IMG/VR virus record: IMGVR_UViG_3300024346_000031 | Coordinates: 21,551 to 85,550 of that record | Source of the DNA: a virus | Reading direction: 5' to 3' (one strand) | DNA length: 64,000 bases | In this document: piece after piece, positions 5,005 to 61,127 of the stretch | Numbering within the stretch: position 1 is the first letter of the stretch | How the letters are laid out: each line of letters begins with the position of its first letter | The notes under the pieces: generated by a model | The model's database searches: none | The model's input: only the letters and a program-made list of their open reading frames with translations | What the model was told of the DNA's origin: nothing | Program-made: the position numbers and the translations under genes

Positions 5005-8000
5005 CTAAGAACTTAATACGTTTAATTTTCTATTGTTTAATCTTGTTTCAATATTTTCTATATAGTTTATTTTATTGTTCACCGTAACAAAGTTTTCTAT
5101 TTCTTGTAAATATGTCCCTCCAGCGTTATCTTTTACTTCAACACTAATGTCATATTTTCCTAAATCACTGAACTTCCATACAAAGAAAGGTACTCCTTTT
5201 ACTTTAGTAATTTCCTTCTTTGTAAACGAGTCTTTAAGCGTCCATATGTATTCTTGTTTTCCATCTAAGTTGTTGACTACAAAGAAAACCGGCGCATGTT
5301 GGGGAACTTTAAATCTTTCATTAAAAAACTTAAGGCTATTTATTTTTAAAGAATTTTCATCTATTGTAGACGGTAAGTATCCTATTTGTTTATCGTTTTC
5401 AAATCTCCAATAATCTTTATCTTGCCAAAAATAAGGATCCTGAACTGCTCCTGTTATAATATCGCTTGTTTTAGCAAATAGAAACAACGTATCTTCATCA
5501 AACATTGGAAAAGTATTTTTAAGATAATCAACCAATCTTTGAGAATATACATTTCTAGGATGAAAGAATGTATATTTACTACTATCTTTTTCTAAATCTG
5601 GACTAATCGGGCTATACCAATTTACATAAGAAAGTATGTGATACATATCTTTACTTAAATAATTAGCTTGGGCATGTATTTTACCTCCTATTATTTCATA
5701 GTTAAATTTACTTATCCCATTATGGATAGATTCAGCATTTAGCAAATCAACTAATTCTATTAATGTTGAAAAATTAGGCAAATAATAAGTAGAATATAAA
5801 GATATTTGTATAGCATCTCCTGGAGTAGGATCTGCTATGTAGAATCCTGCTAAAAAATCTCCTTGATATACTAAATCAGTAAATCTCATGTAGTATAGAT
5901 CTTTTAAAGTTTTTTGCTCAAAATCACTTATCTTGAATGGTATGTTATTTTTACCTAGTCCCCAGTTGTTTTTTGCCTCTAGATTGTTTAAAGGATCGTT
6001 ATATGAAATAAATGAATCAGTGTTTTCATCATAAAATTCTACATCGTACATGTCTTTTCCTGAACCATATCTATGTTGAAAAAATGTTTCAAATTCTAAT
6101 AAGTTTTTATATATGTCAAAATTGTTTAGACTAGTATTTAGTACATTAATTTTTGGAAAGTATAGTGTTGAAGTTCCAAAGTCTTTTACTTGAACGTTAT
6201 CTAAATTATCTAATCTTAAACTAAATTTATCCTCTAGTCTAGAAAAAGCTATTATTTCTGGTTTCTTGGCTTCATCAACTGTTATCTTTTTAGAATAAGT
6301 ACTAGTGTTTCCATTAAATGTATGTATACTGATATCTACATTATATTCACCAACATATGGTAAAAAATGAGGAAGCCTCTTTAGGTCTTTGGCAAGACCT
6401 CTGTATTCAAAGTTATATGGATTAGGAGTAGGTTTTGTTATTTTCCAAGTTACTTCATAAACATTTTTTAAATCTATATTTTCAAAAGTCCAATATAATG
6501 GCGTATTTGAAAGATCTAACCATGTTATTCCATTAAAAGTTTTACATGTAAATTTATCTATTCCTATTTCAAGTATAATAGGCGCACCGACTTTTTTATC
6601 AGGGCCATCGCCTGTGTCCCATGATAACATAGAAGATATATTTGGGTATCTTTGATTTTTAACAGATGTATAATACTCTTTTATATAGTCGCATATTGAA
6701 TCTATATCAGTTGGGCTATATTTTTGAAAAGACGAATATGGATTAGGAGAGTTTTTGTTAATTCTATTAACACCCATATCAATTCCATTCAAATAGCTTT
6801 GGGAATAAAGAGGGTCTAAAGAAACTATAGTAAGCCTATCACTATTACTGGGTGAATTTTCAATACTAACCCTTTCGTTTAAATCATAATCTAATATATC
6901 CGTTCTGTCTGGCCAATACTTTATAGTAAACTTTTGAAAATAGATAAATTCACCAATAATATCTTTTATTTTTACATTTATTGGTATAATTTCATTTTTT
7001 AATTTCTTGTCTAACTGATTTAACTTATAGAATATCTCATCAACCGTAAAGTCAGTTGTTTCTACTACTTTAGGTAAACCATCATCATCGAATTCATCTG
7101 TTGCTTTTGTGAATTCATAAGTGAGAGCTAAGAATTCTGTTTTTACAAATTGCTTTCCTGATTTTACATTTTTATTTAGATTTAATAGATTAAGGTTGTC
7201 TATTTTACCGTCATCTAGTATGTCTGTTAGGTCTACTAAAAATAATTTGTCAAAGTAAGGAGAATCAACATTTACATTTTTCCAATACTCTTTTATATGA
7301 AGAGTGTCTTTGTAACCTAACATATTAATGAAATTAACTAATCCCTTATAGGTTCCTATATATGGATATATTTCACTATGATTTACAAGTAAACTTTTTC
7401 GTGTTGAATTTATTTTTTTCCAATCTGGATATACCTCTTTTATGTCGTATGTTGCTAGTATATTAGCGTCTTGTCTGTTAAATTTAATACCAAAGTTTTC
7501 TAACCATACTCTAAATCTTTCATCTTCGTCTTCCCCTTCTCCGTAAAATAATAGTTTGGCAACTGTTTCACTAGTGCCTGTTATTTCGTCTTCTAGGTAA
7601 ATAGTTAAAGATCTAACATACTCTATTTCTTCGTTTGGGTTAAAACCTACATTCAATTGAAGAGGAACTTTTAAATCTATAGCTGCTCCGGTTCCGTTAG
7701 GTAAAATGTCTTCATAGGAAACTTTTATTGAATCCTTTTTATTAATTACATATTCTCCTATTTTAAATTCTTTTTCAACGTCATATAGGAAAAAAGGAGA
7801 TTCATTGATGCTATCCCATTTAACAACTATAGACTGGCCTCCAGTTAATGTTGGAAATTTATAATCAGATCCTACTTTTTCAAGTATAAAAAAGTTTTCA
7901 TTATCATATAGAGCAATAGATAATTGTTCGAAATACATGTTTGCCTCTAATATACCAGTGTCAGGGTTTTCCTGAAGGTTTATTAATTCGCCATCTCTAT

Positions 8001-13028: not shown

Positions 13029-14660
<1,632 letters not shown>

Positions 14661-24108: not shown

Positions 24109-24867
24109 TTGAAAAATTTAATATCTTATTCAAATTACGTATTAGAACACTCTCACAACAGTGAATTGAATGAGCTAATAACCACGCTTTCCGATTTTTG
24201 TTTTTCTAGTATAAACGAAGCTTCTGATACTAACGGTGAATATGTTATTTTACAGGAATTAGAAGTATCTGAACCAGGAATAGACGTAGATATTCGCTTT
24301 CTTCTTAGAAAAGAACAAGACATTTCTTTAAAAAACGATTCTCATTTCTCTAAAATGAATTGGCAATCTGTAAAACTTGACAACAATGGATATGTCGTAA
24401 GTGGAAATACATTTATGACAGATGGCAATATACCTGAAATAGAAATAATAATAGCACTAGATTCAAATAAAGTAAACTCTGAGACGAATAAAAAACTGTA
24501 TTTAAATTTAAATAACACAATTTCTCATGAATTAAATCACTTGAAACAAACAGGTTGGAATATGGACTTTCAGAATATAGAACCTTCATCGATGGAACAC
24601 CGTAAGAAAAACAATAAAAAACATTCTTACTTCATATTGCCTGAAGAAATAGAATCAATGGTATATGGAATGAATAAACAAGCTGAAAAACAAGGCGTTC
24701 CAATTGATACCTTATTTGATTCATACCTAAAACCATTTGTAGAATCTGAGTTTATGACATATTCAGAGATGATGGAAATAATTAGAAAATGGATATCTCA
24801 TACATTAAAAATGTATCCTAACGCTTCTATGTCTAATAAATATGATAATATTATAGACAATATTTAA
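24109..24867 (+). CDS. Zinc metalloprotease with capsid-targeting-like N-terminus
   Basis: 252 residues from a TTG start placed 9 nt after the previous stop; this start keeps the N-terminal motif ISYSNYVLEH, which resembles a targeting sequence ending in a hydrophobic-x-E cut site. The catalytic motif HELNH (H140, E141, H144) is a clear HExxH zincin site, and the PEEIES segment (E180/E182) offers the third zinc ligand about 40 residues later. A second possible cut site (SSINE) lies at about residue 38. It is co-transcribed with the preceding late gene. If packaged, it could be injected to cut host proteins; substrate unknown. A second protein of this design is encoded at 53883-54638. Confidence 0.7.
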   Translation: MKNLISYSNYVLEHSHNSELNELITTLSDFCFSSINEASDTNGEYVILQELEVSEPGIDVDIRFLLRKEQDISLKNDSHFSKMNWQSVKLDNNGYVVSGNTFMTDGNIPEIEIIIALDSNKVNSETNKKLYLNLNNTISHELNHLKQTGWNMDFQNIEPSSMEHRKKNNKKHSYFILPEEIESMVYGMNKQAEKQGVPIDTLFDSYLKPFVESEFMTYSEMMEIIRKWISHTLKMYPNASMSNKYDNIIDNI

Positions 24868-26576: not shown

Positions 26577-27677
26577 ATGATTTACCTGATAGACGGAAAC
26601 GCGTACTTAAACGTTGCAATAAATGTAGTAAAGAGAATGCTATACACCGACAAAACATCAGGAAAAGAATATTATATGAGAGACATCTTCAATGAAGATA
26701 GGTATATCTTAAAGGAAACTGCAAGAATAAAATTTAGAGATTTTTCACTAAATTACCTATCTTCATTGATTTCTCCTGTTAGCGACTCAGTAAACGAAGT
26801 TCACATAGTCTTTGATTCTAAAAGTTGGAGAAAAGAATATGTAACATCTAAGCTCAAAACTCTTTCTTTACCTTCAGGTGATTTTAAGTATAAAGACAGG
26901 AAAAAAGACAATATGATATATTTGTTTTTTGAGTATTTTCAAAATGAAATTCAAAGTTATCTTGAAAAAAATTCAGGTATTGTTTTTCATAGAACGCCTG
27001 GTATGGAAGGTGATGATATAATCGCTCAACTTTGTGAAAATACTAATAAGAATATGATTATCTATACAGTAGATAAAGATATGTTTCAATTAGTAGAAGA
27101 TTCTAGCAGATTCATTATTTTAGCCATGCCCAAAATGATGTCAAAGAACAAAAAAATATTCTACACTAAAAAAAGTGACGCTGGAGATTTCTTTAGTTTA
27201 ACTGAGACAAATAGTGTTGAAGGAACTATTTCAAAATTTGAAAAGAGAGGGTATGTTAGAAATGAAATAGGCCCGATTAATGAAATAGTAACTAAGGTTT
27301 TTACTGGAGATAAATCAGATAATATCCCTAGAATACATAAAATGACTCCTTCTAAAGTTAAAAAAGTAGCAGCCTATCTTATAGAAAAATATGACTCTGA
27401 AATATTAGATAAACTAGATAACTATAAAAATGATATTTCATTTATAGAAGAATGCGCTAAAAAAGTAATTGAAGTAGCCAAAATAAAAGACAGCGATGTC
27501 ATTTTATCTTTAAACGAAGCGATATGCCTGAATATTAAATTAATGAGGTTATCCACCAAAATGATACCTTCTCATGTTAAAACAGAGGAGTATGATAAAA
27601 TATACAAAAATAAAGTATATACCAAATTTAACTATAATAAATTAGTAGAAATAAAAAATAATTCAGTACTTATATGA
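26577..27677 (+). CDS. rnh: RNase H / 5'-3' flap exonuclease (FEN family, T4 Rnh-like)
   Basis: 366 residues. FEN metal-binding acids are clear: D6 in MIYLIDGNAY, EGDD in GMEGDDIIAQL (about residue 143), VDKD in YTVDKDMFQL (about 163) and GDKSDN in FTGDKSDNIPRI (about 244), followed by the helix-hairpin-helix-like K-rich segment. In T4 this enzyme removes RNA primers and flaps on the lagging strand with gp32, and the gp32 gene is just upstream here as well. The stop overlaps the GroES start (ATGA), so the two are translationally coupled. Confidence 0.9.
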   Translation: MIYLIDGNAYLNVAINVVKRMLYTDKTSGKEYYMRDIFNEDRYILKETARIKFRDFSLNYLSSLISPVSDSVNEVHIVFDSKSWRKEYVTSKLKTLSLPSGDFKYKDRKKDNMIYLFFEYFQNEIQSYLEKNSGIVFHRTPGMEGDDIIAQLCENTNKNMIIYTVDKDMFQLVEDSSRFIILAMPKMMSKNKKIFYTKKSDAGDFFSLTETNSVEGTISKFEKRGYVRNEIGPINEIVTKVFTGDKSDNIPRIHKMTPSKVKKVAAYLIEKYDSEILDKLDNYKNDISFIEECAKKVIEVAKIKDSDVILSLNEAICLNIKLMRLSTKMIPSHVKTEEYDKIYKNKVYTKFNYNKLVEIKNNSVLI

Positions 27678-27973
27678 AACCGTTATACGAAAGAATTTTA
27701 ATTAAACCAGTAGAAAAAGAAACTCAGACTAAGTCTGGTATTCTATTACCTGGAAAAGCAGTAAAAAGACCTAATATAGGAACAGTTGTTGCTTGCGGAG
27801 AAGGAACTCCTCATAATCCAATGAAAGTAAAAGCAGGTGATATTGTATTATGTAATAGATACGCGGGTATCGATATAAATTACAAAGATACTTCTCACTA
27901 TGTTATTATGTCTAATGAAATTATCGCAGTATTGGACACTGTAGATGAAGTTAAGTTAGACGAATATGAATAG
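27674..27973 (+). CDS. groES: Co-chaperonin GroES
   Basis: 99 residues. GroES hallmarks: KPLYERILIKPVEKETQTKSGILLP at the N-terminus, which contains the mobile loop that docks on GroEL; GTVVACGEGT; VKAGDIVLCNRYAG; and the YVIMSNEIIAVL strand. It caps the GroEL cage. The phage also encodes GroEL at 13053-14660. It overlaps both neighbours (4 nt upstream, 8 nt downstream), so it belongs to a tightly packed operon. Confidence 0.93.
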   Translation: MKPLYERILIKPVEKETQTKSGILLPGKAVKRPNIGTVVACGEGTPHNPMKVKAGDIVLCNRYAGIDINYKDTSHYVIMSNEIIAVLDTVDEVKLDEYE

Positions 27974-29000: not shown

Positions 29001-29579
29001 ATGAAAATGGCAGATATGAATAGCCTACCGCTTCCTTTACATAGAACTCTTATGTTTGCAAAGGACGTTAATTTAGAGTCAATTGAGGCTTTATCTAGAA
29101 ATATACTTAGGATAAATGAAGACGATGATCATCTTGAAAAATTGTACAAAGTCTACGATATAGATTATATCAGAAGACCCATTAAAATAATGATAGATAG
29201 TTATGGAGGATATGTATATCAATGTATGGGATTACTTGGTATAATGGAAAAATCAGTTACTCCTGTGCATACCTATGCAACAGGTGCTGCAATGTCCTGT
29301 GGTTTTATGATACTTATATCTGGACATAAAAGGTTTGCCTATAGACATGCTACTCCTATGTATCATCAAGTATCTACTGGTTTTTGGGGAAAAACACAGG
29401 ATATGGAAGAAAGTTATAAAGAAACTAAAAGACTTCAACAAAAATTTGAAAACATAACATTAGAATCAACAAAAATATCTAAAACTAAGTTAAAAGATAT
29501 TCTTAAAACAAAGCAAGATTGGTACATGGATGCTAAAGAAGCTTTATCACATGGGGTAATAGATAAAATAATAGATTAA
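29001..29579 (+). CDS. clpP: ClpP-like serine protease
   Basis: 192 residues. The ClpP triad is in place: S99 in ATGAAMSCGFMIL, H122 in PMYHQVSTG and D173 in KQDWYMDAKEAL; the IMIDSYGGYVYQCMGL segment is the usual substrate-binding strand region. ClpP forms barrels that need a Clp ATPase partner, probably the host's ClpX/ClpA. A phage copy may degrade host proteins, or act as a head-maturation type protease, but the phage already has a gp21-like enzyme. Two Met codons (positions 1 and 3) are possible starts. It follows the GMP reductase gene by 6 nt. Confidence 0.85.
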   Translation: MKMADMNSLPLPLHRTLMFAKDVNLESIEALSRNILRINEDDDHLEKLYKVYDIDYIRRPIKIMIDSYGGYVYQCMGLLGIMEKSVTPVHTYATGAAMSCGFMILISGHKRFAYRHATPMYHQVSTGFWGKTQDMEESYKETKRLQQKFENITLESTKISKTKLKDILKTKQDWYMDAKEALSHGVIDKIID

Positions 29580-45531: not shown

Positions 45532-45933
45532 ATGGAAAACACAAGAACGTTAGATGTAGTATTTATAAGAGAGTTTAAGTTTTTTATAAAAAAGTACAAT
45601 AAAAAACAAAAAGAAGATTATCTTTTAAATGTAAATAAAATCATAAAAGATAAATTTAATACTAAGTTCTTAGTTCCAAATCCCGTTCAATCTTTTTTAC
45701 TAAACTATGAAATAAAAAAGTTATTAGATAAAGCTATTAATATCAAGAACCAAAAATATAATAGGATAGTGTTCTTAAATTCTACTATAACATTTGGAGG
45801 AATTCAAAATACTATTGAATTTTTAGATAAAGAATACTTGAATGTTAAATTTAATTACATAATGATAGATCCTAAAAAAGATTTTGATGAAAGCTTGTTT
45901 GATAAATCTAAATTAACATTTTTAAGTTACTGA
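45532..45933 (+). CDS. Uncharacterised protein
   Basis: 133 residues, basic and alpha/beta, no recognised family. A segment RIVFLNSTITFGGIQNTIEFLDKEYLNVKFNYIMID suggests a Rossmann-like or nucleotide-handling fold but lacks a diagnostic motif. It starts 2 nt after the deaminase stop. It meets the convergent structural gene tail-to-tail with a 7-nt overlap. Confidence 0.55.
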   Translation: MENTRTLDVVFIREFKFFIKKYNKKQKEDYLLNVNKIIKDKFNTKFLVPNPVQSFLLNYEIKKLLDKAINIKNQKYNRIVFLNSTITFGGIQNTIEFLDKEYLNVKFNYIMIDPKKDFDESLFDKSKLTFLSY

Positions 45934-46877
45934 CCGCATCCAGGACCTTCACTATAACAATCAGGACCTTCTCCGTATTTTGCTATTATTTCTCCTAAAT
46001 CTTCCATTTTATTCTTTGGATTAGGGTTGTTTCTTCTTCTTGGCGGATTTTCTGGACCTTCTTCTACATCTGGAATAACTTCTATTTCTTCTTCTGTATC
46101 TGGTTCAGCTGTTTCTAAGTCTCCAATTACGTCAATTGCTAATATAGCTTCTGCCTGTTCTCTGGATATTCCCATATAATCCATTAAGTCTTGAACTGCT
46201 CCTTCTAATGACATATCATTTTTAGGATTAGGATTAATTCTTCTTCTCGGTGGATTTTCTGGACCTTCTCCGGGAATAACTTCTGGTTCTTCTGTTTCTA
46301 TTTCAGGCTCTTCTGTTTCTGGATATGCCATATCAAAGTAATTCTCTGATATTGAATTAAACTCCTTAAAGCTATTACATTTACCTTCAGACATTGCTTC
46401 TTTTCTAGCTTTTTGTAATTTTTCTAAAGCTGCGTTTTCTTCTTTAATTACTTTCTCAACATTACTATTAATGTCTACTGATTTTTTAATAGATCCTTCT
46501 AAATCTTTAGATTCCGATATAAACTCATTAAAACTAGGTAAAGTTGATTCATTAGTGTCATCCCATTCTCCTACTTCAACTGTTGCTACGCCAGTTATAT
46601 ATGGATCAGGATATGTAACCGGTTTCTCTCCTTCTTGTTTATATACAAGGTCATGACTCATAGCTTTATATGTAGAGTTATAATGAGGATTCTTAAAAAG
46701 AGGATCCCTTTTTACAACTCTTCTGTAATCTTTAAGTTTATCCGATTCAGATGTTTTTTTACCATTAGCATTTTTATCATATATTAATGAATCGTTTCCA
46801 CCAAATCCTGGTTTTTTAAGATCCATATATTGATCAAAATTATAAACATCTCTTCTATGTACGTCAAATATATCCAT
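45927..46877 (-). CDS. Late virion-associated protein with duplicated acidic-proline repeat
   Basis: 316 residues. The C-terminal half has two copies of a unit: EVIPGEGPENPPRRR-INPNPKN (about residues 206-228) and EVIP-DVEEGPENPPRRR-NNPNPKN (about 270-293), each after a run of E/P and each before a short helical segment. Inside the protein are two sites like the prohead protease consensus, FNEFISES (about 121) and EFNSISEN (about 176), which may be cut during head maturation. It follows the tail-tube gene, 18 nt downstream, without its own promoter. The Cys-containing C-terminus (GPDCYSEGPGCGQ) is unusual. A prohead core or head-tail role is possible but unproven. Confidence 0.6.
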   Translation of the reverse strand: MDIFDVHRRDVYNFDQYMDLKKPGFGGNDSLIYDKNANGKKTSESDKLKDYRRVVKRDPLFKNPHYNSTYKAMSHDLVYKQEGEKPVTYPDPYITGVATVEVGEWDDTNESTLPSFNEFISESKDLEGSIKKSVDINSNVEKVIKEENAALEKLQKARKEAMSEGKCNSFKEFNSISENYFDMAYPETEEPEIETEEPEVIPGEGPENPPRRRINPNPKNDMSLEGAVQDLMDYMGISREQAEAILAIDVIGDLETAEPDTEEEIEVIPDVEEGPENPPRRRNNPNPKNKMEDLGEIIAKYGEGPDCYSEGPGCGQ

Positions 46878-46895: not shown

Positions 46896-47468
46896 CTATA
46901 CTGTAATTGCTCCTATTCTAGATTCTCTAAAAGAATCGCATTGGAAATTAGCACTTAATTTATACAAGCCGTCTGATTTGTATTCTAAATCCATTACAGT
47001 AAGTGGATTGTACAAAAACGCTGGGCTAAAATTAAATTCTCTAAATATTTCTTGAGCTTTATTAAAGATAACCACTTTAATAGATCCAATATAATCTTTT
47101 TTAAGTCCTTGTCTTCCATTAAGAGGATCAAATGTTAAATCTCCCCATGCTCTCATCATGTTATATACATACGCATCATTCTCATCGTTCAAATTGACTT
47201 CAAAATCAATTTTAAGTTGTGCATCCGTTGCTTTAGGTTGACCTGCTGCAAACGTACGTTTAGCGAATTTATAGAACTGCTCTACGGTACCAACACCTGT
47301 TAGTTCAGGAAGTCCTGTTATTTTAGTAACATGTTCAACTAGTAATCCATCATTAGTTCCTTGTATAGAACTTGGTAAGTTAATGATTACTTCGAACTGA
47401 TTTAAAAATATAGGTTCGTAATAATTAGTAGCTGCTGTGGAATTATCAAAATGTGGTAAGCCTGCCAT
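46896..47468 (-). CDS. 19: Tail tube protein, gp19-like
   Basis: 190 residues (T4 gp19 163). The pattern NQFEVIINLPSSI, VEHVTKITGLPEL, ATDAQLKIDFEVNLND and YVYNMMRAWGDLTFDPLNGRQGLKKDYIGSIKVVIFNK is typical of gp19-type tubes. It forms stacked hexamer rings inside the sheath and is the DNA channel. A late motif ends 22 nt before the start. The sheath gene is separate (30409-33345). Confidence 0.92.
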   Translation of the reverse strand: MAGLPHFDNSTAATNYYEPIFLNQFEVIINLPSSIQGTNDGLLVEHVTKITGLPELTGVGTVEQFYKFAKRTFAAGQPKATDAQLKIDFEVNLNDENDAYVYNMMRAWGDLTFDPLNGRQGLKKDYIGSIKVVIFNKAQEIFREFNFSPAFLYNPLTVMDLEYKSDGLYKLSANFQCDSFRESRIGAITV

Positions 47469-47503: not shown

Positions 47504-48322
47504 TTACTCAAGGTTTTTTTTCATTTCAATAGTGTCCTTGTCAATTTTACCATTGGATGTTAGTTTATCTAATTGCGAAGTTAACAGCTCTTGAGAAGCG
47601 TCTTCGTCACCTGACCATATTTTTTGAGTTTCAACAGCATCACCTGTGAATTTTAATATTAAAGACGGTAGAACCAATTCAACAAGTGAATTTTCTACTT
47701 TTTTATCTACTCTATCATATTCCTTGATATTAGATATATTAATAGGAGTAGAACTGTCTATCTTAATATTTGCACCATTACCTGAAACGTTTAATCTAAC
47801 GTTATTCCAGTTATTTACAGTTTGATTTTCTAAAGTATCTACCATGTGAGTAGAAGCTTTTAGTACTATTTTAGGACTTCCTGAATCTAAAGAAGATGCA
47901 ACTCCTCTAAAAACAAGCCTATTAGTCGTTATATTGACTTTAAATGAAGTTTTTTCAAAATACTTTTCAGTAGATTCTTTTATGATAGTATCAGTTATAT
48001 TTTGATCTATACCAGATGACATAGAAGATATTTCCAAATCATAATCCTTAACTAATTGTTTTTTAATAAATTCAGTTAATAGATCTAGCTTTTGTTTTAA
48101 TAAAACAGCTTCACTTAATATGTAGTATGTTGAAGTAGCAGTTGCTTTTTTAAAATTCAGATCTGGAAATACGTCAATTTCATGTATTTTAGTATCGACT
48201 GTGTATTGTTCAAATTTTGTTATACCGTCTACTATATTCCAAGATATATCATGGCTTAGTATAACCTGAAAGATCACGCCTCCGTCTTTAGCACTTACAT
48301 TTTCATACTCGTAAACTTTCAT
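47504..48322 (-). CDS. Uncharacterised late virion protein near the tail tube
   Basis: 272 residues, no recognised family. Mixed beta/alpha, with a coiled segment (SEAVLLKQKLDLLTEFIKKQLVK) near residue 90 and an S/T-rich middle. No enzyme motif, signal peptide or membrane segment. It lies between the tail tube gene and the two small late genes, 11 nt after the 48334-48591 gene. A neck, tail or completion-protein role is inferred from the neighbourhood only. Confidence 0.6.
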   Translation of the reverse strand: MKVYEYENVSAKDGGVIFQVILSHDISWNIVDGITKFEQYTVDTKIHEIDVFPDLNFKKATATSTYYILSEAVLLKQKLDLLTEFIKKQLVKDYDLEISSMSSGIDQNITDTIIKESTEKYFEKTSFKVNITTNRLVFRGVASSLDSGSPKIVLKASTHMVDTLENQTVNNWNNVRLNVSGNGANIKIDSSTPINISNIKEYDRVDKKVENSLVELVLPSLILKFTGDAVETQKIWSGDEDASQELLTSQLDKLTSNGKIDKDTIEMKKNLE

Positions 48323-48333
48323 TAATGGTTAAA

Positions 48334-48591
48334 TTATTTAGCTAAACTATCTCGTGTTTTAGTATAGTTTTTCCAAAGCTCATTATAGATATCACATGAT
48401 GCTCCTAAGAAATTTATAATACCTACGTATTTTCTTTTATTCTTACCATCCATCTTAGCTATTTTCTTTCCTAGTTTTTTCGCATCATTAGTGGTTAGTT
48501 CCTCATCTGGATCTTTACCTACTAGTTTTTTAAGTGCGCCTTTCTTCTCAAGAATTGCAAAGTCTTTAAAACTTAAAGCTCTTTTATTCAT
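48334..48591 (-). CDS. Small basic candidate packaged protein with targeting-like N-terminus
   Basis: 85 residues. The N-terminus RALSFKDFAILEKKG follows the F-x-x-F, hydrophobic, E pattern seen in other candidates here, with a predicted cut after AILE. The remainder is lysine-rich (LGKKIAKMDGKNKRKYVG), like small internal DNA-associated proteins of T4 heads. It lies 10 nt from the next small basic gene and shares its late promoter. The role is inferred. Confidence 0.55.
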   Translation of the reverse strand: MNKRALSFKDFAILEKKGALKKLVGKDPDEELTTNDAKKLGKKIAKMDGKNKRKYVGIINFLGASCDIYNELWKNYTKTRDSLAK

Positions 48592-48601
48592 GGTAAATGT
48601 A

Positions 48602-48835
48602 TTATTTTTTCTTTCCGTTCCCTACTACTTTCTTACTTTTAGCTTTAGCTAAAAACGCTTTAGTATATCTCTGAATAGAGTCTGTTCCTTTTCCTTCAAG
48701 TTTAGCTAAATCTTGACCTACTTTAATTCCACCTTCATCTTTTTGAGCAGTGTTACCTTTAGTGGCGTATTTAGCAGAAGCAGCGTTAGCTGCAGCCATG
48801 AATTGAGCGTGGTTCATTACAACATTCTTCTTCAT
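48602..48835 (-). CDS. Small basic late protein
   Basis: 77 residues, lysine- and alanine-rich (FMAAANAASAKYATKG, then FLAKAKSKKVVGNGKKK). An N-terminal HAQFMAAA segment is only weakly like the targeting motif and lacks the Glu. It is the first gene after a late motif ending 22 nt upstream. A DNA-binding internal or head-core protein is plausible. Confidence 0.55.
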   Translation of the reverse strand: MKKNVVMNHAQFMAAANAASAKYATKGNTAQKDEGGIKVGQDLAKLEGKGTDSIQRYTKAFLAKAKSKKVVGNGKKK

Positions 48836-53882: not shown

Positions 53883-54638
53883 TTATTTGCTAGCACTGGC
53901 TTTTCTAAGTGTAGATTTTTCAGAATCAGTTAAACTAGACCATCCCGTACTAGATAGTTTATCTAAAATTATATCTATTTCTATTTGATTTTTAAATTGC
54001 TTAGGCTTGGGTTTACTGTAGCTTTTAAACTTAATTGGCTCTGGTTTTTTCTTAAGTTCATCGTGCATCATATTATTTACGCCGTCTATGTTGGATATAT
54101 CTTTATCATTTACACTTTTTCTTAATGATTCTAAATGGCTTTTAAAATATTGTCTAGACATTTTAGGATAAATTGCTGTCGCTTGTTTATAATTTTTTAC
54201 CCCGTTTGAGTCTAGTAAATGTTTAGATTTAATGATAGCTAGCCTGTCTGCTACTAATTCAATATTCATTAGTAAATCAACAGCTTTTTCTATATCTATA
54301 TTTGAATTATACGAGTCCCACATTACATCTTTTCCATATTTAGAATATTGATACTGATGAGACACTTCATGAAGTATTACATAAAGAGCATTTTCAATAG
54401 GTCTACTTAATATCTTATCTGCAATCACACATTTATCAGTTTTAGATATACCAGAAGCCCCGTATAATGTATCGAATCCTATTGCTTCGCATCCTGATTT
54501 TACTATATAATCTTTTAAATCATCTATTACATTATGATGATCTTTAAAAGTGTCTTTTAAAGTCTTAATAAATTGTCCTAATCCTTCTACGTTAGTTTTA
54601 GATTCAAACAATGAGAATGGTTTTATAAAGTTTTTCAT
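53883..54638 (-). CDS. Zinc metalloprotease with capsid-targeting-like N-terminus (second copy of the type)
   Basis: 251 residues. The first 15 residues (MKNFIKPFSLFESKT) fit the targeting pattern with a predicted cut after SLFE. HEVSH (H90, E91, H94) is a HExxH zincin site, and the NIELVAD segment (E127) supplies the third ligand. The C-terminal 70 residues are lysine- and proline-rich. It stands as a single late gene: AATAAATA repeats end about 13-20 nt before its start. It is only distantly like the 24109-24867 protease, so two separate proteases may be packaged. Substrate unknown. Confidence 0.7.
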   Translation of the reverse strand: MKNFIKPFSLFESKTNVEGLGQFIKTLKDTFKDHHNVIDDLKDYIVKSGCEAIGFDTLYGASGISKTDKCVIADKILSRPIENALYVILHEVSHQYQYSKYGKDVMWDSYNSNIDIEKAVDLLMNIELVADRLAIIKSKHLLDSNGVKNYKQATAIYPKMSRQYFKSHLESLRKSVNDKDISNIDGVNNMMHDELKKKPEPIKFKSYSKPKPKQFKNQIEIDIILDKLSSTGWSSLTDSEKSTLRKASASK

Positions 54639-57417: not shown

Positions 57418-59112
57418 TTAAACTGAAGCGTTAGAAGGAGCTGCTCCACCTGTAAGTGTAGCTAAATCTCCGATAACGTCCATGTTAACATACTGAGTTT
57501 CTGGATGCCATCCAGCTTCAGTGATTGCGTAACGTGACTTCATTCCAATTTTTGGTGAGAAAGTACCTTCTGAAATAGTCTGTAAAGACTCAGCCATAAT
57601 ATATGGTAAGAATTTAACACCTGGTTCTTCGTCAGATCCTTTACGTCCGATAGTAATTCGAGAATCACCGAATCTTAAGTTAGGATCAACGTATACTTGA
57701 ACACCATAGACTTTACCAGCTGGGTATAAGTTACCAGCAACACCGCCCATATCAGATGGAGCTTGTGCAATTGAGTAACCAGCAACATCAGCTAATGCAG
57801 ATGCAACTCTACCGTTAGTAATCATGAATGTACCAGCACCGAATCTACCTCTATGGTAAATTAAGTTTGCTAATTCAAGAACCTTAGTAACTAATCTTCT
57901 TTGAATTGTAGATACGTTTTCAAAACCACCAACACCAGCGTTTAAGTCTAATGTAGTAATTCCAGCACCTTCAACGTTAGTTACTTCCGTATTATGGTCA
58001 GCAGCTAAAGTAAAGATTCTGTCAACTAATCTTTTGTTGATAGACTGTGCAAGTTCGTTAACTGCAACGTTCTCTAACATAGAGATTACGTCGAAGTTCC
58101 AAACTCGGTTAAGATCTTGAATCTGCTCAACAGATGCTGAGATAGATACTTGATCACCTTTTGCTTCAACAAATTTAGTAAACATTCTAAGACCCATTTG
58201 TCTGAATCTAGATAGTTCTCCTTGCTCTCTTGACATTGAGTCAGGAATCTGACCGTTAGTGTCTGTAAAGTAAGGTCCAGTGAAATCTTCTGTTGCATAA
58301 TTTTCATCAGCAACTGAAGTAAATCCTGAGATATGGTTTTCTAAAGCTGAAACTAAAGAAACACCTACTGAAGTAGTAGCTGGATCTAAGTCAATAGCTC
58401 CTAAACCTGCTGCTGCGGCACCACCACATGCAGTCATTGTGTTACCAGTGTTGATTAAATCAGCTGTAACATTTACAGCGGCACCACCATCATCAAGAAC
58501 TTTAAGGATCAATTGACCATCAACTCTTGAGAATCCTACAAATCTGTATGTACCAGCGGTAGTACCACCAGCGAATACAGTATCTGCAGTATCAATAGCA
58601 GGAACTGTTGCGAAGTCATCAACTGTGATTCCTTCTAATTTAACCATATATGGTTCAAAATCTGTATCTGTTCTACCACCGGCATATAAATAATCCAAGT
58701 AAGGTAAGAACCCAACCGGAGAATCCATAGGAACAACGGGAACAAGATCAAATCCGATCGTTTTTGCAGCTACTTGAATAGCAACTGGAAGTAACGATGG
58801 AAACTTATCTCCAGAACCAGAATCGGCATACGAACCTTTAACACCAGCATCTGAAAAAGGTGTCTGACCAGGTGTTGGAGCAACAGCGTTACCCATACCT
58901 AATACAGAACCTGGTTGTTGAAAAAACAACCCAGGTGCAGTTTGCTCAAAGAGAGGAGCGCTATTATCAAAAATAGCATGGTTATGCGCATATTCTGCTA
59001 ACCATTCTTGTCTCCCACTATCAGCTGTTACACCATGGCTTTCAAGCATTGGCTTCCAAGTATCGAGGATTCTAGAATCTGAAGTACGTTTAAAAACTTT
59101 TGTACGTGACAT
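57418..59112 (-). CDS. 23: Major capsid protein, gp23-like
   Basis: 564 residues (T4 gp23 521). The N-terminus SRILDTWKPMLESHGV matches the T4 start (LLNKWKPLLEGEGL), the part removed in T4 maturation, and FPSLLPVAIQVAAKTIGFDLVPVVPMDSPVG matches the T4 IPNLIAFDICGVQPMNSPTG block. A likely cleavage site lies near APLFEQT (about residue 60). GC and codon use are richer and more even than in neighbours, as is common for the most strongly expressed gene. It forms the head shell after cutting by the gp21-like protease encoded 17 nt upstream. No promoter of its own was found. Confidence 0.94.
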   Translation of the reverse strand: MSRTKVFKRTSDSRILDTWKPMLESHGVTADSGRQEWLAEYAHNHAIFDNSAPLFEQTAPGLFFQQPGSVLGMGNAVAPTPGQTPFSDAGVKGSYADSGSGDKFPSLLPVAIQVAAKTIGFDLVPVVPMDSPVGFLPYLDYLYAGGRTDTDFEPYMVKLEGITVDDFATVPAIDTADTVFAGGTTAGTYRFVGFSRVDGQLILKVLDDGGAAVNVTADLINTGNTMTACGGAAAAGLGAIDLDPATTSVGVSLVSALENHISGFTSVADENYATEDFTGPYFTDTNGQIPDSMSREQGELSRFRQMGLRMFTKFVEAKGDQVSISASVEQIQDLNRVWNFDVISMLENVAVNELAQSINKRLVDRIFTLAADHNTEVTNVEGAGITTLDLNAGVGGFENVSTIQRRLVTKVLELANLIYHRGRFGAGTFMITNGRVASALADVAGYSIAQAPSDMGGVAGNLYPAGKVYGVQVYVDPNLRFGDSRITIGRKGSDEEPGVKFLPYIMAESLQTISEGTFSPKIGMKSRYAITEAGWHPETQYVNMDVIGDLATLTGGAAPSNASV

Positions 59113-59129: not shown

Positions 59130-61127
59130 TTATTTTTTGCGGCTTTCCGCATTTCTCATAAGAGAATCTATATAAGTCTGAGAGTAACCTCTCGTCATAT
59201 CAACTACCCGGTTTACTGGGATTGCACCTTCTGTACTTTGGCTCTCGTTGATTTGTTGTAATTTTCTATTTGCTTTTTCTCTTTCTACTCTTTCGTTAAC
59301 TCCTCTGAAATCTATTTCATCCCAGAAAGATTTAACTTGATATGGAGTGTTCAAGTTGTAAAGTTGAGTTTTAGTATGAATACGATTCTGTTCAGCTTCG
59401 TTCATATTACCCCAATCTGCTTTGTATTCGTTTGGCATATATTTAATATGATTAGGAATAGCTTTATTAACGTTTTCAACAATTGCTGAAATAATACTTG
59501 TTACATCAGCTTCGTTAAACCATACTGAAGCGTTTGTTGCTTCAACAACGGCTTGTTTAATGTTAGTATCTAAGTTATAGAAAGCGTCTTTCTTTTCTTG
59601 AGACAATACTTTTAAGAAAGGATATTTATTTTCTAATACAGCTGTTGCTGAGTTATTCTTTACAGTTTTTATTACTTCGTCAATTCCTTGAGTGATCGTT
59701 TCAATCTGCTGACTTTCATTTAATCCAGATACTTTATTTAGTAATCCTTTATTAGATGAAAACTTTCCACTGTTTAAAGATTCTGCAATATATTCAGCAT
59801 AACTAATCCCTTTTGAAGATTTTTCAGCTACATATTCAACATATTCTCTATTTAATTGTGAATTTTCAGCAATATATTCAGAAAACTGAATTCCTTTATT
59901 AGCACCTTCTGCTACATATTCAGTGTATTGAATACCTTTATCTACTTCTTCAGCTAAATATGATTGGTAATTAATACTCTTGTTTAAGTTCTCTTTTAAA
60001 TAATCTTGGTAATTAATGCTCTTATTTAGATTTTCACCTAAGTAATTTTGATAATTTAAACTTTGATTAAGTTTTTCTCCTAAGTAATTTTGATATTCAA
60101 TACCATTATTAGTAGTTTCAGCAACATGCTCAGTATATTTAACTGACTGATTTAATTTACTTGATAAATAATCAGTATATTTAGTTAAATTCTCAACTTT
60201 CTCAGCTAGGTAATTAACATATTTTCCCACGCCTGATGTTGGTGAAACTTCAACTGAATTAGTTTCTTTTGAAACAGATTCATTAACTGTTTTAAGAGCA
60301 GCCATTTCGTTTTGAATAGATTCAAATTTTTCTTTAACTATCTCAGTATAATGATTCATATCATTTTTATTAACATACTCGTTCATTTTGCTTTTATTAT
60401 TTTGATTGCTTAAACTATTAGCTAGCTTGTTATTATTTTTGTTATTTATCTTGTAAAATTTATAATTATTTGAAAAATTTAAATTTTCAGATATATCTTC
60501 TAATCTTTCTTTATTTATAAAGGAGTTTTCTTTTAATAAACTGTAATTTTCAGTTATCATATCGAAATTAGTCTTTAAGGATTCATTCACTGTTTTCTTT
60601 AAAACTGCTTCGGTAAATCCAGGCTCAGCAACCAGGTCATATGTAAAAATTCTATGAAGTTTTACTTTACCTTCATTTAGTACTTGTCCTGCTGCTCTGG
60701 AAGAAACTGATATATTAACACCTCCGTCGATAAGAGCTTTAGCTATTTTACCATTAGGCGTATTTTCTAAAATTCTAAGCTTAATGTTTACTTTATCTCC
60801 TCCATCATGTGTTAATCCTTCTATTATATGAGAAGCACTTTTAAGAGTTACTTCAAAAGAAGGTGGATGATCTAAATCTCCAACTAGTTGTCTAGTTTTT
60901 ATCTTTTCATTTAAATATTGTAAATGTGGAAGATATTCCTCTTTTTCATAAACACGTTGATTATTATTCTTTTGTCCAAAGACTGCGCATACTCCTTCGA
61001 GTATCGTGTTATTTACACCGTTACTTTTGACACTTAATTTTTCACCTACGTTTTCGACGATTAATACTATATCATCTCCGCTTGTGTTTTCTATGAAACT
61101 ACTTGGTTTTAGATTTGAACTATTCAC
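59130..61127 (-). CDS. 21: Prohead protease (gp21-like) fused to a repeat scaffold (gp22-like)
   Basis: 665 residues; T4 encodes gp21 (212) and gp22 (269) separately. Residues 1-200 are the serine protease: GDLDHPPSF with H87, then NISVSSRAAG with S142/S143, as in gp21 (His-Ser type). An N-rich linker (about 205-247) follows. Residues 303-456 are eleven copies of a 14-residue repeat (Y-x-x-Y-(L/V/I)-A/G-E...), each helical, most with a YLAE/YVAE/YIAE element fitting the gp21 cleavage pattern. Residues about 457-665 are a helical C-terminal domain. The scaffold is probably cut to small peptides on maturation. An internal ATG at 60386 (residue 248) could yield a separate scaffold protein. Confidence 0.88.
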   Translation of the reverse strand: MNSSNLKPSSFIENTSGDDIVLIVENVGEKLSVKSNGVNNTILEGVCAVFGQKNNNQRVYEKEEYLPHLQYLNEKIKTRQLVGDLDHPPSFEVTLKSASHIIEGLTHDGGDKVNIKLRILENTPNGKIAKALIDGGVNISVSSRAAGQVLNEGKVKLHRIFTYDLVAEPGFTEAVLKKTVNESLKTNFDMITENYSLLKENSFINKERLEDISENLNFSNNYKFYKINNKNNNKLANSLSNQNNKSKMNEYVNKNDMNHYTEIVKEKFESIQNEMAALKTVNESVSKETNSVEVSPTSGVGKYVNYLAEKVENLTKYTDYLSSKLNQSVKYTEHVAETTNNGIEYQNYLGEKLNQSLNYQNYLGENLNKSINYQDYLKENLNKSINYQSYLAEEVDKGIQYTEYVAEGANKGIQFSEYIAENSQLNREYVEYVAEKSSKGISYAEYIAESLNSGKFSSNKGLLNKVSGLNESQQIETITQGIDEVIKTVKNNSATAVLENKYPFLKVLSQEKKDAFYNLDTNIKQAVVEATNASVWFNEADVTSIISAIVENVNKAIPNHIKYMPNEYKADWGNMNEAEQNRIHTKTQLYNLNTPYQVKSFWDEIDFRGVNERVEREKANRKLQQINESQSTEGAIPVNRVVDMTRGYSQTYIDSLMRNAESRKK
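59760..60221 (-). repeat. Eleven tandem 42-bp repeats encoding the scaffold 14-mers
   Basis: In-frame repeat region of the protease-scaffold gene. DNA units are diverged, while protein units keep the aromatic/aliphatic positions and the Glu, so selection is at the protein level. Confidence 0.85.

Follow-up and report, generated by a model that had tools for sequence, protein, structure and literature searches.

The open reading frame at 45927-46877 (minus strand) encodes a 316-residue protein that carries two copies of an arginine-proline unit and candidate protease sites, and it raises the question of what such a protein does for the phage that makes it. The window, meaning the whole 64,000-nt stretch of DNA that was analyzed, corresponds to positions 21551-85550 of an 85,550-base virus record. 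Among its genes are those for a tail sheath and a tail tube, for a capsid protein of the gp23 kind and for a fusion that contains a gp21-type protease, and it therefore belongs to a T4-related contractile-tailed phage. We infer both a head location and a cleavage for the target protein, and we consider it somewhat probable that it is a head-assembly precursor of a T4-related phage, with a signal that directs it to the prohead and a cut behind E122 made by the gp21-type protease. The features on which this reading draws are collected in the table.

Features of the target protein and of related genes in the window
Feature	Position	Strand	Evidence
Conserved N-terminal region, residues 1-105	46563..46877	-	38/41 columns with >=95% identity fall in residues 1-91 (44 homologues)
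Site 1, FNEFISE, residues 116-122; predicted cut after E122	46512..46532	-	44/44 distinct homologues; same pattern in T4 IPII, IPIII and gp23
Variable acidic C-terminal region, residues 123-316	45930..46511	-	net charge -25
Site 2, FKEFNSISE, residues 170-178; possible second cut	46344..46370	-	similar sequence in 9/44 homologues only
Unit 1, EGPENPPRRRINPNPKN, residues 204-220	46218..46268	-	17-residue unit
Unit 2, EGPENPPRRRNNPNPKN, residues 273-289	46011..46061	-	17-residue unit
Tail tube protein (gp19-like)	46896..47468	-	phrog_45 tail tube E=1.5e-4; phrog_32623 (unknown function) E=7.8e-27
272-aa cassette neighbor	47504..48322	-	14/17 loci; no PDB relative found
85-aa basic-looking neighbor with related N-terminal motif	48334..48591	-	F8, F11 and E15 invariant in 11/11 sequences aligned
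77-aa neighbor, first cassette gene	48602..48835	-	gene order
Major capsid protein (gp23-like)	57418..59112	-	phrog_138 E=2.1e-37
gp21-type prohead protease fused to C-terminal putative scaffold	59130..61127	-	phrog_207 E=6.2e-32, residues 25-372

Protein family and gene neighborhood

The first-pass annotation described the protein as unlike any known. This description holds for the curated sets (PHROGs, Pfam, PDB and phage records) but not for uncultivated virus contigs, where 64 loci encode 44 distinct members of the family, five of them truncated by a contig end. PHROGs and Pfam searches with the target return nothing better than E about 0.1, and tblastn against 50,697 phage records, a set that includes T4, finds no match. 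A PDB profile search with residues 1-108 recovers only designed TIM barrels (E 0.003-0.045). No published report of the family or of scaffold arrays resembling the T4 capsid targeting sequence (CTS) was found in a limited literature search, with most subscription papers outside its scope. By all searches run, the target represents a new protein family, and it appears to follow a version of the T4 CTS/gp21 scheme in which the motif lies inside the protein.

The number of loci recovered from uncultivated virus contigs is 10 with the protein alone as query, 13 with an alignment, 27 with residues 47-108 and 64 with residues 1-138. The last search was seeded by the N-terminal peptides HY[ND]STYK and YKQ...., neither of which contains site 1; the confirming alignment of homologues spanned residues 1-138 and so included it. 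Over all 44 rows, 41 columns reach at least 95% identity, and the three of these that lie outside residues 1-91 are F116, F119 and E122. The five truncated rows make this threshold hard or impossible to reach toward the C-terminus, and a 15-row alignment that excludes truncated rows is consequently the cleaner statement. In this alignment, F116, F119 and E122 are the sole invariant residues beyond residue 91. The protein appears to consist of a nearly invariant front and a fast-changing acidic back with a short CTS-like motif between them. An AF2 model of the full protein is poor (mean pLDDT 46.4, from an alignment of 8 rows), and one of the conserved N-terminal region has no confident fold (mean pLDDT 41.6, 15 sequences), low values that such shallow alignments may explain as well as disorder does.

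In all 17 loci examined, several of which are near duplicates, the gene immediately upstream of the target encodes a tail tube, and 13 of the 17 have the complete cassette in the order 77 aa, 85 aa, 272 aa, tube and target. Loci L004 and L005 are without the 272-aa gene, L060 is without the three genes that precede the tube gene, and the 77- and 85-aa genes are uncalled in L072. PHROGs, Pfam and PDB searches with the 272-aa neighbor gave nothing usable. Late-type neighbors such as the tail tube would fit the earlier assignment of the target as a late protein. The tail tube itself has relatives in phage records at low identity (24-42%), mostly in Bacteroidota phages but also in Sphingomonas phage PAU, with Prevotella Lak, Tenacibaculum, Chryseobacterium and Flavobacterium phages among them.

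The internal motif and the prohead protease

Site 1 has the form F-x-x-F-[I/V/L]-x-E, and each of the 44 homologues contains this aromatic-x-x-aromatic-[I/L/V]-x-E type of motif in its strict form exactly once. It starts at residue 111-119 and not within the first 10-20 residues, as a CTS motif would. Its two phenylalanines and its glutamate are each invariant in 44/44 homologues, the P3 position is I in 27, V in 14 and L in 3, and P1' is very mixed. Shuffles of the single target protein make its sites unremarkable (P=0.033 for the strict pattern and P=0.009 for a relaxed pattern with both sites), so the significance of site 1 comes from its conservation across homologues and not from single-protein shuffling. 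An internal translation start just before the motif was rejected as a general explanation, because in 33/44 homologues the 20 residues ahead of it lack a Met. In the window gene, inspection likewise finds no ATG, GTG or TTG codon within 20 residues upstream of site 1.

The same kind of motif occurs in T4 as YQEFIAE at residues 4-10 of IPII and IPIII and as FGSFLTE at residues 59-65 of gp23, and IPI has no match to the strict pattern. The gp23 propeptide is 65 residues long according to excerpts of PMC5694885, so FGSFLTE marks its end. Excerpts of PMC9026906 assign residues 4 and 7 of the T4 CTS to targeting and residues 8 and 10 to processing, and they give the cleavage rule of T4 gp21 as L/I-X-E. 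The four CTS positions are an aromatic pair, an isoleucine and a glutamate, and all are retained in the target motif. Both FNEFISE (followed by S) and FKEFNSISE (followed by N) terminate in I-S-E and agree with the gp21 rule. Of the two prohead-protease-type sites that had been proposed, site 1 is strongly supported as a predicted cleavage site by its conservation and its match to the T4 CTS and gp23; site 2 does not generalize. Several of the nine homologous sequences that resemble site 2 read V-S-E, T-N-E or V-N-E instead of I-S-E, and site 2 is possibly a lineage-specific second cut.

In relatives of the phage, the motif appears to be used as an N-terminal tag. The strict motif was counted in the first 28 residues of each ORF, with residues 41-68 as the control. 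Three larger relatives (G014, G015 and G006) have strict tags in 10/226, 8/144 and 6/102 ORFs, compared with shuffle means of 0.77, 0.37 and 0.32 and control counts of 2, 0 and 0. In each of the three, one match falls in a topoisomerase subunit and is probably due to chance. This leaves 9, 7 and 5 tagged proteins (21 in total), which may not all be independent because some share similar N-termini. A Pfam scan of 20 tag-bearing proteins, taken from 42 relaxed matches in the three genomes, finds domains in three of them: phage lysozyme, NUDIX and peptidoglycan binding. Enrichment is weak in the window genome, where the sole strict match in 77 ORFs is a topoisomerase subunit. A relaxed pattern there matches 3/77 ORFs (0.64 expected), a looser pattern matches 5/74 in a hand-picked gene list (0.68 expected), and the motif occurs anywhere outside the protease fusion 7 times against 3.5 (38/500 shuffles are as high), with the motif pattern altered between these successive anywhere, hand-picked and N-terminal tests.

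Three adjoining genes in G015 (L171 1212-2522) start with near-identical tags, MK[NT]YIKNF..., which suggests that a tag may have been duplicated within a cargo cluster. In megaphage LR756500 (L135 6909-7664), a protein encoded close to the tail tube gene has repeats of leucine-rich appearance and opens with a tag of this type, YEDFINE. The window also encodes two proteins in which metalloprotease-like HExxH motifs were picked out by eye, one at 24109-24867 (+) with YSNYVLE near its N-terminus and one at 53883-54638 (-) with a looser F-S-L-F-E.

The gp21-type prohead protease of this phage is part of a fusion protein whose C-terminal region, a presumed scaffold, contains an array of nine Y/F-x-x-Y-[ILV]-x-E motifs. 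These occupy residues 303-449 (about 59781-60221), after and within the end of the phrog_207 match, and eight of the nine are consecutive at 14-residue steps. The corresponding proteins have 9 motifs in G006 and 8 in G010, and those of six relatives that are farther removed have 7, 7, 8, 8, 8 and 5; among megaphages there are 11 in LR756504, 11 in LR745206 and only 2 in LR756500. Shuffling of six proteins, a set outside which the six distant relatives fall, gives means of 0.09-0.16 (0.09 for the window protein) and a maximum of 3. Alternatively, the 14-residue repeats could be a plain coiled coil. We tentatively raise the idea that the head-loading tag mimics the scaffold repeat. Cargo, the target with its internal copy included, would pass into the prohead as though it were a further repeat, and cleavage of every copy by the one protease would set it free. 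Such mimicry would be particular to this phage group and would not extend to T4, whose gp22 lacks any strict copy of the motif.

The capsid protein contains L-F-E at residues 54-56 (by inspection), which is likely its maturation cut. A second gene, at 29001-29579 (+), also matches a head-maturation protease family (phrog_94 E=2.7e-27) and is ClpP-like as well, so the identity of the cutting enzyme is not certain. The window further encodes GroEL (phrog_5725) at 13053-14660 (+) and a small protein that is GroES-like by eye at 27674-27973 (+).

The acidic tail and its repeat units

The region after site 1 cannot be aligned across the family, and in complete proteins it measures 74-364 aa. In all 43 homologues that have a tail it is net negative, and each thus places an acidic tail behind a gp21-type site in the manner of a gp67-like core protein.

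Within this tail, the duplication reported in the first-pass annotation is well borne out. The two units agree at 16/17 residues, the longest exact repeat is 10 aa where none of 5000 shuffles exceeds 6, and an acidic E/P run is present in the sequence ahead of each unit. The helical segment that was said to follow each unit is predicted by AF2 after unit 1 (residues 224-235, 239-245 and 248-255, with block pLDDT of 72-83 dropping to 47). After unit 2 it is doubtful, because the helix at 290-301 has a pLDDT of 43-50 in a model that is poor overall. Five of the seven nucleotide differences between the window copies are synonymous (by inspection), which indicates that the unit peptide is under constraint.

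The units, which the first-pass annotation took for a possible binding motif, occur in 8/44 distinct homologues; seven of these have both copies, and L080 (L007 contig) has a single one. A ninth, L083, has a single degraded copy, and L010 is truncated before the unit region. Units 1 and 2 have a nucleotide identity of 0.86-0.98 within a genome (7 genomes), and the same unit has 0.77-0.96 between genomes; in L008, lineage-specific residues are common to both copies. This pattern is suggestive of homogenization of the two units within genomes, in a sample where L015 and L016 are near duplicates. A search for the ENPPRRR motif in other phage proteins, as the first-pass annotation suggested, found the ENPPRRRxNP pattern in no other viral protein family. 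ENPPRRRxNP is found in 15 viral contigs, 12 of which encode the target family, and the remaining 3 together with 8 genome-contig matches look like chance. The idea of a widespread motif was rejected on this exact pattern search of viral contigs and on a tblastn search of phage records with a 31-aa stretch, in which the low-complexity filter may hide matches.

A 488-aa homologue in L060 combines a degraded unit with a C-terminal peptidoglycan-binding domain at 6129-6233 (PF01471, 23.8 bits with a cut-off of 23), and the homologue on contig L061 has the same sequence. Among seven homologues scanned, no Pfam domain was found except in L060. A C-terminal EGPxC micro-repeat is present in two copies in the window protein (45930-45980, minus strand) and in four in L007 (ORF end at 5930).

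The twin arginine-proline units would be a later addition to the back part of the protein. The weighting given to these features in the first-pass annotation appears to be inverted: site 1 belongs to the family core, and the repeat units are confined to near relatives.

Proposed role, alternatives and comparison with known systems

If the target is a head precursor, then its conserved N-terminal region (residues 1-115) would join the prohead, and the F-x-x-F-[I/V/L]-x-E motif, as a helix spanning residues 116-122, would dock it to the scaffold core, as the T4 CTS does. The gp21-type protease would then cut after E122 and split the N-terminal region from the fast-evolving acidic tail. The tail might remain in the head as an internal peptide or protein, or it might leave, and in the window's lineage site 2 would perhaps permit another cut after E178. 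The tail fragment would have a counterpart in the acidic internal peptide that T4 gp67 yields, and the arginine-proline units would form a lineage-specific basic patch within it, probably contacting DNA or acidic core proteins.

This reading is supported by the presence of the motif in every homologue retrieved with patterns that lack it, by the three invariant residues, the uniformly acidic tails and the pattern match to the T4 CTS and gp23. N-terminal tag enrichment in three relatives and a protease with nine similar motifs support it further. It is weakened by the internal position of the motif, compared with the N-terminal T4 CTS, and by the failure of IPI to match the strict pattern. The valine at P3 in 14/44 homologues falls outside the published L/I-X-E rule, and the weak tag enrichment in the window genome and the second candidate protease also count against it.

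The motif might instead be a targeting or binding helix that docks the target and is never cut, so that the mature protein stays whole. The fixation of F116 and F119 while P3 and P1' vary is what this would predict, as these phenylalanines correspond to the targeting positions of the T4 CTS in the excerpts of PMC9026906. The same excerpts make position 10 a processing position, however, and the equivalent E122 is just as invariant, so we regard docking alone as unlikely. A related possibility is that the N-terminal region and motif serve solely for loading and that the acidic tail is cargo injected to act in the host, like T4 IPI. This is compatible with a head precursor and puts the function in the tail, for which roles as a DNA mimic, a counter-defense protein or a cell-wall factor can be proposed. 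Tails that vary in length and content and yet are all acidic would suit such cargo, as would the peptidoglycan-binding domain in L060 and the diversity of T4 internal proteins outside the CTS (excerpts of PMC3012670). The conservation of the N-terminal region far exceeds what a loading tag needs, though, and that domain was found in L060 alone among the homologues scanned, which makes injected cargo a rather improbable account of the protein.

Adjacency to the tube gene at every locus examined, together with the domain in L060, could also point to a tail or neck protein that acts with the tail tube and uses the motif to contact a tail or neck partner. Against this, no target homologue was found in nine stretches of roughly 8.5 kb (one of 5.4 kb) around related tail tube genes in named phages and megaphage assemblies (best HMM E 0.82). 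The T4 gene block 18-19-20-67-68-21-22-23, which holds the gp67 gene, places tube, portal, core, protease and capsid genes contiguously, so adjacency to a tube gene does not imply a tail role. We consider a tail or neck function quite unlikely.

If the head-precursor reading is correct, an anonymous repeat-bearing protein can be assigned to a system for loading proteins into the head and cutting them. The T4 scheme, described chiefly in enterobacterial and giant phages, would thereby be extended to a large group of uncultivated phages. The rule aromatic-x-x-aromatic-[ILV]-[N/S]-E would predict packaged proteins of unknown function, including lysozyme-like, NUDIX and peptidoglycan-binding proteins, and recognition of the targeting sequence as a copy of a scaffold repeat would become a testable idea.

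Among known systems, the CTS of T4 IPII and IPIII shares with the target the pattern aromatic-x-x-aromatic-I-x-E in a phage with a gp21-type protease. It differs in being N-terminal, whereas in the target about 110 residues of conserved sequence come before the motif and make it internal, and the remainder of the target has no sequence relation to IPII or IPIII by tblastn. The propeptide of T4 gp23 resembles the target in layout, as a long N-terminal stretch that ends in the same type of motif. However, the part of the target that follows the site is acidic and variable without a capsid fold, and the phage has its own gp23-like protein. T4 gp67, a prohead core protein and precursor of internal peptides, has L-I-E followed by a strongly acidic tail, but it is 80 aa long and is without the F-x-x-F motif. 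The head proteins of SPN3US, compared here by their description in excerpts of PMC5694885, are cut at a different motif, A-X-E, but they resemble the processing predicted for the target in that propeptides of more than 100 residues are removed after a glutamate motif.
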